A stretch of DNA of 53,188 nt, from contig NZ_SELT01000022.1 in assembly GCF_004361065.1 (NCBI RefSeq), positions 1-53,188 of the forward strand, given 5' to 3'. The stretch comes from Cognatilysobacter terrigena (GTDB lineage: Bacteria; Pseudomonadota; Gammaproteobacteria; Xanthomonadales; Xanthomonadaceae). How positions within the stretch are numbered: the first letter of the stretch is position 1; the number at the start of each line of letters is the position of its first letter. Position numbers and translations under genes: made by a program. A model generated the notes under the pieces. That model saw nothing but the letters and a program-made list of their open reading frames with translations, was not told the origin of the DNA and did not search any database. Of this stretch, positions 50,746 to 53,188 are shown in pieces.

Positions 50746-51459
50746 TCAACGCGCGCCGAACAGCGTCTCCGCACGCTGGAACAGGATCCAGCTCGTCGCG
50801 ATCATCTTGTCGCCGCCCTGCGGCCGATTGCCGCGGTGCGTATGGGTGAACGCGGCGGGTGCGATCAACAGCGCACCCGTCTTCGGCGCGATCTTGCGAC
50901 GCTGATAGAGGAATTCGGTTTCGCCTTCGCGGAAACCGTCGTTGAGATAGACGGTCCATAGCAGGTGGCGGTGCAGCGTTTCCGCGCTCGCGTCGCGCGG
51001 CATCAGTTCGCAGTGCCAGTACGGATACCCGCCGCGGCCGGCGGTGTAACGCTGCAGATTGATCGTGCCCGGACGGAACAGCTGCATCAGCAGCGGCGTG
51101 AGCGCGGCATCGTCCATCGCCTGCAGGCGCTCGCCGGTGAGGCGATGGCGCTTGTCGCCGTCCTGCATCTCCAGCATCAGCGGCGCGACGACGGTATGCG
51201 GCCAGCGCCGCACGTAGTCGCGCAGGCCCGCGACCACCGCTTCGTTGAGCGTGTTGGTGACGTCCAGCCACTCCTCGCGTGTGGAGATGGCGAGGTCGAG
51301 GCTGTCCTTCATGTCCGGAAACACACCACCGCCGACGCGCCCCGGCTCATGCCCGGCGCCGCGCGAGAAACGTTCGACCACCTGCGCGCACCACGCCGGA
51401 TCGAGCGCGTTTTCGATGACGTGGATGAAGTCGGGCGCGGCGGTGTCGTCGGCGGTCAT
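50746..51459 (-). CDS. 2-oxoglutarate/Fe(II) oxygenase of prolyl-4-hydroxylase type
   Basis: 237 residues. Iron ligands are likely His149 and Glu151 (YWHCE), the first acid ligand being Glu instead of the usual Asp, and His208 (THTHRGNRPQGGDK). Lys218, exactly ten residues after His208, fits the 2-oxoglutarate-binding Lys of the P4H family. The double-stranded beta-helix strands around them (LHRHLLWTVYLNDGF, GETEFLY, GALLIAPA) agree. The substrate is unknown; it may hydroxylate a protein or a small molecule. A single gene, convergent with the two-component operon. Confidence 0.82.
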   Translation of the reverse strand: MTADDTAAPDFIHVIENALDPAWCAQVVERFSRGAGHEPGRVGGGVFPDMKDSLDLAISTREEWLDVTNTLNEAVVAGLRDYVRRWPHTVVAPLMLEMQDGDKRHRLTGERLQAMDDAALTPLLMQLFRPGTINLQRYTAGRGGYPYWHCELMPRDASAETLHRHLLWTVYLNDGFREGETEFLYQRRKIAPKTGALLIAPAAFTHTHRGNRPQGGDKMIATSWILFQRAETLFGAR

Positions 51460-51645
51460 GGGGCAATGGGACGGCGGCGGGCGGACGGCGATCCTCGCAC
51501 GGCGCTCCCGGTTTCGCGGATGAAACACGGGCCCCGAGCGGGCGGTCCGAACCGGCCGTAACGGCGGAAACGCTGGCCCGGCGTGGTCCGGCAGCCACGA
51601 CCGTGGATAGGGCCGCTGTCACGGCGCGTCGATATCGGTGAATTC

Positions 51646-51747: not shown

Positions 51748-51764
51748 TTGGCACGGGACTGGCT
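51748..51764 (+). promoter_or_regulatory. Sigma-54 promoter of the repeat-protein locus
   Basis: TTGGCACG-ggac-TGGCT, with the invariant GG (51750-51751) and GC (51762-51763) exactly ten bases apart. It matches the sigma-54 consensus YTGGCACG-N4-TTGC with one mismatch (TGGC for TTGC). It sits ~31 bp before the first gene's GTG, whose ribosome site CGGAG fits in the leader. Confidence 0.65.
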
Positions 51765-51794
51765 CCTAGGGGCATACCCCAGCGGAGTCCACCC

Positions 51795-52301
51795 GTGCCC
51801 CTGTCCCGCCCCGCCCTGACGCTGACCCTCGCCACCGCATGCCTTGCGGCGGGCCCGGCTTGCGCGGGCGACGGTGCCCCCTCCCCCACGGGCATGGACG
51901 CGGCGCAGAACCTGACCATGGTGGTGGTGCGCGACGTCAATCCGCGCATCGCCTACCGCGGCCTGCCCGACACCACCGACAACCCGGCCCGCGTCACGGC
52001 CACCGTCTTCCCGGGCCAGGTCTTCGGCAACGCGCTCGGCGGAATCATGGACACGCTGGTGGGCGACAGCGCGCTGGGCGACACCGCACCGACCTCGCTC
52101 GACCTGCGCACCGCCCGCGAGCCGCGCATGGTCGGCGGCGAGGCGATCGAACTGCGCGCCGGCATGCCGGTCGGCGCGGGTGCGACGCCGCTGGGCATGA
52201 GCGGAACGATCGGTAGCACGGTGCTCAGCGCGACGTCGGGCATCGCCGACACCGTGACCAACGCCGCCATGCGCGCGACCAAGATCGGGGTGGGCCCGTG
52301 A
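51795..52301 (+). CDS. Exported protein, first gene of a repeat-protein (Fap-like) locus
   Basis: 168 residues from GTG with CGGAG 7 bp upstream. Signal peptide MPLSRPALTLTLATACLAAG ends near ACA-G. The mature part has no known motif: a strand-rich beginning (LTMVVVRDVNPRIAYRGL), a Gly/Ala/Thr-rich middle and a C-terminus MSGTIGSTVLSATSGIADTV that could be a membrane-associated helix. Located between a sigma-54 promoter and two repeat-type exported proteins, it may be the accessory or chaperone of the locus, as FapA is in Pseudomonas, but I see no direct resemblance to prove it. Confidence 0.72.
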   Translation: MPLSRPALTLTLATACLAAGPACAGDGAPSPTGMDAAQNLTMVVVRDVNPRIAYRGLPDTTDNPARVTATVFPGQVFGNALGGIMDTLVGDSALGDTAPTSLDLRTAREPRMVGGEAIELRAGMPVGAGATPLGMSGTIGSTVLSATSGIADTVTNAAMRATKIGVGP

Positions 52302-52888
52302 TGCGTCGCGCGTCGATCGTGCTCACGCTGCTCCTCCTCGCTCCGGCCGCGTTCGCGCAGTCGCGCGACGACAGCCGCATCGACGGCAATGCCGCCGCCG
52401 ATGTGTCGGGCGTCGCCAGCCTCAACGTCGCCGCGGGCGTCGGCAACGCACAGACGAACCTCCGCGCGATCGCGATCGGCGATGCCAGCCTCGCGATGGC
52501 GTTCGGCGCGCAGGCGGTCGACACCACCGGTGCGGATCTTTCGCGCGATGCGCACGCCACGATCAGCGGCGGCGCGCTCGGCAACGCGACCGGCGTCATT
52601 GGTGTCAACCAGATCGCCGGCCAGGCGAACGCGCAGGCGAACCTCGTCGCGATCGGCACCGCGGCGGGCGTCACGTTCGCGCAATCCGTCGACGAATCCG
52701 CGCTCGCCGCGACGGCCGCGCCGACGTCGACCACCACCAGTTCAACGCCCGTCGGCGTGCGCGAAGCGCGCATCGATGCGGGCGCGATCGCGGCGCCCAC
52801 CGGCGTGCTGCAGATCAACCAGACAGCGGGCGTCGGCAACGCGTCGGCGAACGCCATCGTGCTCCAACTGCCGGGGGGCACGCCGTAA
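52301..52888 (+). CDS. Exported Gly/Asn/Ala repeat protein, FapB/curlin-like
   Basis: 195 residues after an ATG that shares one base with the previous stop (TGATG; a GTG one codon earlier is possible). Signal peptide MRRASIVLTLLLLAPAAFAQ. Three ~36-residue repeats (25-61, 86-122, 156-191) align without gaps around the pattern I-x10-GV-x4-N-x-x-AG-x-x-NA-x-x-N, e.g. GVASLNVAAGVGNAQTN, GVIGVNQIAGQANAQAN and GVLQINQTAGVGNASAN. A Thr/Ser linker precedes repeat three. Regularly spaced Asn, Gln and Gly are typical of functional amyloids (FapB/FapC, CsgA) and beta-solenoid adhesins. Secreted fibre or nucleator is inference. Confidence 0.75.
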   Translation: MRRASIVLTLLLLAPAAFAQSRDDSRIDGNAAADVSGVASLNVAAGVGNAQTNLRAIAIGDASLAMAFGAQAVDTTGADLSRDAHATISGGALGNATGVIGVNQIAGQANAQANLVAIGTAAGVTFAQSVDESALAATAAPTSTTTSSTPVGVREARIDAGAIAAPTGVLQINQTAGVGNASANAIVLQLPGGTP

Positions 52889-52934
52889 CCCACGGCAGCT
52901 AGGCAGACCCACGTCGTATCAAGGAGAGAACCCA

Positions 52935-53188
52935 ATGAAACTGCATCGCACGCTGATCGCGCTGGCCGCCAGCGCACTGTTCGCCGCCCCGGCCTTCGCT
53001 TACGGCGACGCCACGATCTTCAACTACACCGATTCCACCGACTACGCGATCACGCTCGGCTTCGTCGACGTGTATGGCGACATCAGCGTCTCCAGCAAGT
53101 CCGCTGCGGTCGCCGACCAGACGCAGGAAGCGGTCGAGAACTTCTCGATCGGCGACGGCTCGCACGCCGCCGACTTCAACGGCAACGC
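52935..53188 (+). CDS. Exported repeat-type protein (3' truncated by window edge)
   Basis: ATG with an excellent AAGGAGA 7 bp upstream; the frame stays open to the end of the window (84 codons). Signal peptide MKLHRTLIALAASALFAAPA ends at FA-Y. The mature start (DATIFNYTDSTDYAITLGF) and GDISVSSKSAAVADQTQEAV followed by GDGSHAADFNGNA resemble the N-termini of large exported Asn/Gly-repeat proteins often annotated as adhesin or heme-utilisation protein next to C39-type peptidases (from memory). It is the third gene of the sigma-54 locus and may encode the main structural subunit. Confidence 0.65.
   Translation, partial: MKLHRTLIALAASALFAAPAFAYGDATIFNYTDSTDYAITLGFVDVYGDISVSSKSAAVADQTQEAVENFSIGDGSHAADFNGN

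Follow-up and report, generated by a model that had tools for sequence, protein, structure and literature searches.

The fap locus

The contig NZ_SELT01000022.1 of Cognatilysobacter terrigena (C22; 53,188 bp), analysed here over its whole length and called the window, ends on its plus strand with three consecutive genes whose products look exported by eye, signal peptides having been assessed in this way without a predictor. Judged from sequence, a fap operon (functional amyloid of Pseudomonas type) almost certainly begins here, its order being fapA-fapB-fapC(...)-fapD-fapE-fapF. An earlier inspection of the letters alone (the sequence-only reading) had described three such genes and their spacing, and both are as described: the stop codon of gene 1 overlaps the ATG of gene 2 by one base, with an alternative GTG start for gene 2 lying 3 bp upstream, and the 46 bp gap between genes 2 and 3 contains the ribosome-binding-like AAGGAGAGA. 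Gene 3 is interrupted by the true end of the contig (Table 1).

Table 1. Proposed features at the right-hand end of the window
Feature	Position	Strand	Details
-24/-12 (sigma-54 type) promoter-like site, TGGCACGGGACTGGC	51749..51763	+	GG-N10-GC; 31 bp before fapA start codon
fapA homologue	51795..52301	+	168 aa, GTG start, TGA stop; Sec-type N-terminus by eye
fapB	52301..52888	+	195 aa; ATG at 52301, TAA at 52886-52888; three amyloid-type repeats
FapB repeat 1	52379..52459	+	aa 27-53
FapB repeat 2	52562..52642	+	aa 88-114
FapB repeat 3	52772..52852	+	aa 158-184
Ribosome-binding-like AAGGAGAGA, before fapC	52921..52929	+	read from sequence
fapC, first 84 aa (signal peptide and N-terminal region)	52935..53188	+	ATG start; contig end cuts just before repeat 1

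The remainder of the operon can be followed in a congener (G002) with a closed genome, in which the order is complete: fapA-fapB-fapC1-fapC2-fapD-fapE-fapF, then a sigma-54 activator gene on the opposite strand. Identity between this congener and the window is 85 percent for gene 1 and 86 percent for gene 2, and the complete counterpart of window gene 3 lies at L033:15780-16538:-. The window genome itself (G000; 88 contigs, 3.2 Mb) carries fapD-fapE-fapF and the activator gene on contig C47, which begins within the final repeat of a fapC. The C39 peptidase, FapF-like barrel and FapE homologue that the sequence-only reading had suggested looking for downstream are thus all present, both in the congener and in the window organism.

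The models of NCBIfam match FapB to FapF, which bears out the likeness to fap operons proposed from the sequence. FapB of the window matches NF058557 (E 1.8e-31; 109 bits, equivalog cut-off 190), and FapC1 and FapC2 of the congener, with three repeats each, match NF058558 (E 1.6e-26 and 1.7e-23; 94 bits, cut-off 195). On C47, FapD matches NF058616 (E 2.7e-60; 203 bits, cut-off 330), FapE matches NF058559 (E 4.5e-10; 39 bits, cut-off 250) and FapF matches NF058560 (E 3.3e-101; 339 bits, cut-off 700); the congener's copies give 1.1e-59, 3.5e-9 and 7.7e-98, respectively. FapD carries the cysteine motif QQYDFSCGSAA and, by eye, a signal peptide, and in the congener it matches the Pfam C39 family (5.8e-21). 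FapF of the congener matches the solved FapF structure 5o65 at 3.9e-73, and its start looks coiled-coil-like by eye. The gene set, the gene order, the repeat motif, the C39 peptidase FapD and the FapF barrel are all common to this locus and Pseudomonas fapABCDEF. Among genomes, the FapF model finds 121 of 297 in the family, a count that takes in a weaker sister class, and in the bacterial class it finds 69 of 369, many of them weak; it finds none in 14 control genomes, and no genome scores over its cut-off.

Several observations weigh against assigning the locus to fap. Every Fap model score stays under its NCBIfam equivalog cut-off, and the window proteins are therefore to be regarded as divergent homologues rather than equivalogs. 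The visible 84 residues of the window FapC match no Pfam or NCBIfam Fap model, and the product of gene 1 has no Pfam or NCBIfam match over cut-off. Lastly, the operon of the window organism is split over C22 and C47, which would join through one or more fapC copies: no stretch of 15 to 399 bp overlaps exactly between the two contig ends, and a DNA search with the congener's fapC region recovers both of its ends, on C22 and C47, with its middle not found in the assembly, probably because the assembly broke at near-identical repeats.

Gene 1 is taken as fapA because of a family link through relatives and its place in the locus. Homologues of the congener's copy were recovered by a profile grown from it at 80 of 83 fap loci; at L079, L141 and L147, the exceptions, the contig breaks off before fapA. 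Of the 46 aligned FapA proteins, 29 match the FapA chaperone model of NCBIfam, NF058617, at E 0.01 or better, the window protein not being among those, and a search of solved structures with the FapA profile yields nothing at E 1 or better. According to the accessible part of PMC3792158, FapA is absent in 6 of 16 genera.

The locus is a well supported, ordinary member of the fap operons, and its worth lies in the comparisons with relatives. Fap has already been reported in the same bacterial order, the Xanthomonadales, in Stenotrophomonas and Rhodanobacter (PMC3792158, available text). The window adds a fap operon in a genus, Lysobacter in the wide sense, that the main text of the distribution papers PMC3792158 and PMC6173800 does not name. 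In the literature searched, the sole paper with fapC, Lysobacter and amyloid together is PMC7716237.

Repeats and predicted fibre structure

The three repeats that the sequence-only reading ascribed to gene 2 are all there, with the spacing I-x9-GV in place of the I-x10-GV it had given. In 20000 shuffles of mature FapB, not even a single core motif arose. Gene 3 does run off the end of the window, at position 53188; its repeat-type nature is taken from relatives, since the visible 84 residues hold no complete repeat.

A predicted model of FapB, a step that had also been suggested, has three strands per repeat, and its best match among the eight chains compared is the FapC fibril. The FapC fibril structures 9nqd and 9u4u are matched both by the FapB profile and by the predicted model. 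FapB differs from the protein in these fibrils in being the minor subunit, and no FapB chain is among the structure matches to its profile. Against a close likeness, the confidence of the model is low (mean pLDDT 55.4, pTM 0.49), and Foldseek alone gives the model no match at E 0.001 or better, the top one being FapC 9nqd at E 0.87. With low confidence, the FapB repeats may thus be beta elements resembling those of the FapC fibril.

The sequence-only reading had left room for a distinct fibre system, with unrelated subunits, a convergent Asn/Gly repeat and a secretion pore of its own. This would fit the failure of any score to reach an equivalog cut-off, the lack of a direct family match for gene 1 and the variation of FapC copies in number and in their C-terminal CxxC. 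However, the repeat resembles the Fap motif published in PMC5557850 (available portion) and FapB matches its model as given above; all Fap components but FapA match their own models in the same order, FapF matches the solved FapF as stated earlier, and FapA is of one family in 80 of 83 relatives. A distinct system was accordingly rejected as extremely improbable. Curli (csg), or another amyloid of the nucleation-precipitation type, was rejected as more improbable still, to the point of being negligible: the gene for the pore resembles fapF and is accompanied by one for a C39 peptidase, and the proteins of the window and of G002 give no curlin-type Pfam match at E 1 or better, a negative confined to these proteins, the whole genome not having been searched for csg, and limited by the HMMER filters, which pass few matches above about 0.1.

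By analogy with Pseudomonas, all subunits would be exported by Sec, and FapD would process a partner, for which the published suspect is FapE, thereby licensing FapF. FapB and FapC would then cross FapF unfolded and polymerise outside, giving fibres of stacked cross-beta structure, with one layer per repeat, that would serve the biofilm matrix. FapB would probably nucleate these fibres.

Proposed sigma-54 promoter and activator

Control by sigma-54 had been proposed from the sequence, and the wider comparison argues for it. In a weighted scan of both strands of the whole window for -24/-12 sites, TGGCACGGGACTGGC stands alone in scoring at least 18.5 of 19.5. Of 14 Lysobacteraceae loci, 13 carry a site scoring 18.5 in the 350 bp that precede the mapped FapA match, where 0.003 such sites are expected per region, and all 14 reach 17.5 or more there. 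Within 1000 bp at the 62 other loci, a score of 17.5 or more is reached in 59 and 18.5 in 17 (0.009 expected at 18.5, the threshold for which alone a background rate was computed). The scan omitted L081 and L124 (truncated), L079, L141 and L147 (no fapA), and L039 and L040.

The sites are accompanied by a gene for a sigma-54 activator, present in 79 of the 83 loci (none was found in L124, L132, L150 and L040). It is convergent with fapF in 17 of 18 Lysobacteraceae sources and within 1 kb of it in 12. The copy of the window organism on C47 lies tail-to-tail with fapF and matches Sigma54_activat (2.1e-69), VpsR (2.1e-19) and a Fis-type helix-turn-helix (4.5e-10). The VpsR domain occurs in all 59 activators scanned, this copy included, and the GAFTGA motif is invariant in 59 activators, which had been preselected by the pattern G[AS]F[TS]GA. 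Four other activators of the window genome have FleQ or response-regulator domains, with no VpsR match over cut-off. In a tree, 122 activators of fap loci and the copy of the window organism form one clade of 123 leaves with support 0.989; the outsiders were five further sequences from this genome, two of which (L190, L191) are the same protein; L192 was missed by the pattern and left out of both the tree and the domain scan. The window genome carries rpoN twice, at C8:51586-52965 and C14:6583-7932, both copies scoring above the family cut-off.

Two points weigh against a dedicated activator throughout the Lysobacteraceae: in 5 of 17 loci a distance of 1.6 to 5.9 kb separates it from fapF, and at locus L040 of this family none was found. 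It might also be supposed that a housekeeping promoter drives the operon and that the -24/-12 match is coincidental. When the upstream sequence is shuffled, the best score averages 15.2 of 19.5, and in 1000 shuffles 18.5 is attained in 0.4 percent. Set against this are the single such site in the whole window, its recurrence in the Lysobacteraceae loci far above expectation and the activator gene of one clade at nearly all loci, which make a coincidence very unlikely. The fap operon of the window is thus apparently switched on by a sigma-54 promoter, as read from sequence.

In P. fluorescens PF07, RpoN control of fap has been reported (PMC9207406, accessible part), and BrfA has been found to sense c-di-GMP, factors of the BrfA type being widespread in Pseudomonas (PMC13101488, accessible part). 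The layout in these partial accounts of PF07 is like that seen here, with a -24/-12 site before fapA and, downstream of fapF, a gene for a sigma-54 activator in reverse orientation. The VpsR domain is a feature of the activators described here, and their likeness to BrfA is drawn from gene layout. Like BrfA in P. fluorescens, the VpsR-type activator may respond to c-di-GMP and open the sigma-54 promoter. The sigma-54 site and the VpsR-type activator travel with fap in Lysobacteraceae and Burkholderiales loci, and therefore c-di-GMP control of Fap outside Pseudomonas is directly testable. No paper combining VpsR and fap was among the literature matches listed.

Two side observations concern these regulators. 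The rpoN gene on C14 sits near an activator with a FleQ domain. In Paraburkholderia fap loci (L103, L097 and others) the operon is flanked by two sigma-54 activators, one upstream and one downstream, and in L103 both carry the VpsR domain.

Copies and C-terminal ends of FapC

In comparison with Pseudomonas fapABCDEF, the congener has two fapC genes and relatives have one to four. Among 16 Lysobacter and Luteimonas sources (L078-L092 and G002), five have one copy, one of these five lying on a cut contig, eight have two, two have three and one has four. The 63 other loci have one fapC each, the first repeat gene there being counted as fapB. In several cases the fapC paralogues of one genome cluster together (0.98 in G002, 0.97 in Luteimonas gilva), and therefore fapC duplication has recurred or the copies have been homogenised. 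The comparison thus reveals repeated tandem duplication of fapC, or homogenised copies, in the Lysobacteraceae; the available text of PMC3792158 does not mention duplication of this gene.

The copies also differ at their ends. Most FapC copies from Lysobacter and Luteimonas retain a C-terminal CxxC, including those of the congeners L. xinjiangensis and GW715, but it is lacking in G002, L. lacus, L. segetis, L. bugurensis, the 63 other loci and the end visible on C47. FapC of Pseudomonas UK4, as seen in an alignment, ends with CxxC, whereas FapC of G002 and of C47 ends without it.

A candidate FapD cleavage site in FapE

The target of FapD is called undetermined in the literature, a hint being the loss of the FapE N-terminus in mass spectrometry (PMC5557850 and PMC6173800, in part), and GG motifs in FapE and in FapF are mentioned in the available portion of PMC5557850. 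Among the matches listed for FapD cleavage after 2017, no cleavage site is named in titles or abstract starts.

In the N-terminal region of FapE, an alignment of 82 sequences has the motif V-x-[DE]-x-x-L-x-x-x-x-G-[KR], with Gly in all 82, followed by Lys or Arg in all 82, Leu in 81 and Val in 77. Its spacing is that of a double-glycine leader in which the last Gly is replaced by Lys or Arg. We tentatively suggest that FapE may hold a disguised double-glycine leader and that the C39 peptidase FapD may cut directly behind it, after Gly-Lys (residue 51 in the FapE of the window organism). The cut would take off a leader by which FapF is gated, and FapD-type peptidases would then form a periplasmic branch of double-glycine processing. 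As a reading this is possible rather than probable, and the motif names, to the residue, a candidate position for the cut by FapD that can be put to the test.

Canonical leaders of this kind are found at a sister locus in the window genome (contig C25, L076:9982-14121, minus strand; L077 is the same locus, and L202-L221 are loci of the family). It encodes a FapD-like C39 peptidase (6.5e-40) and a FapF-like barrel (9.4e-41), together with a Ser/Asn/Asp-rich exported protein (in L076) and two small exported partners with canonical double-glycine leaders; four of its proteins were scanned and gave no FapB or FapC match. The leaders read ...L-x-x-[LM]-R-G-G (LRGG or MRGG). RGG is present in partner 1 at all 22 sister loci and in partner 2 at 21 of 22, the remaining partner-2 match (L219) being in an ambiguous frame. 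These 22 loci are those of G000 and G002 and 20 picked by hand from the weaker class of FapF matches. None of 14 partner 2 sequences matches an NCBIfam model. According to the accessible part of PMC6173800, fapD and fapF homologues lie side by side in five further phyla.

When profiles were compared, FapE matched partner 2 with a probability of 85.7 and a score of 43.8 over 21 columns ending in VDDATLAGMTGKF and PVPQERLDELRGGF, respectively. In 400 column permutations the score reached at most 24.9, and controls against partner 2 gave 0.1 for FapB, 7.0 for FapA and 0.3 for reversed profiles. The profile rows had been picked by patterns that contain the motif: for FapE, 31 were used of 45 with the motif, from 78 loci, and for the partners, A6 came from 14 of the 22 loci and A7 from 8. 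The motif counts in the 82 FapE sequences and the 22 sister loci were repeated without this choice by pattern. Speaking against a common leader, FapE and partner 1 match with a probability of 1.3 and are aligned elsewhere, though partner 1 has the same kind of leader; the profiles of partners 1 and 2 match each other at 84.7.

As another FapD site, the RGRG after the FapF coiled coil, found in at least 90 percent of 84 sequences, was considered and set aside, as it is without the leader spacing. Partner 1 of the sister loci ends in a conserved GI.TVIQNTG.NVLIQN.M motif.

Neighbouring gene

Upstream of the fap promoter, the neighbour is a gene of the 2OG-Fe(II) oxygenase type (window 50746-51528, minus strand; Pfam 4e-7). 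In the closed congener, an open reading frame sharing the C-terminus of this neighbour also adjoins fap.
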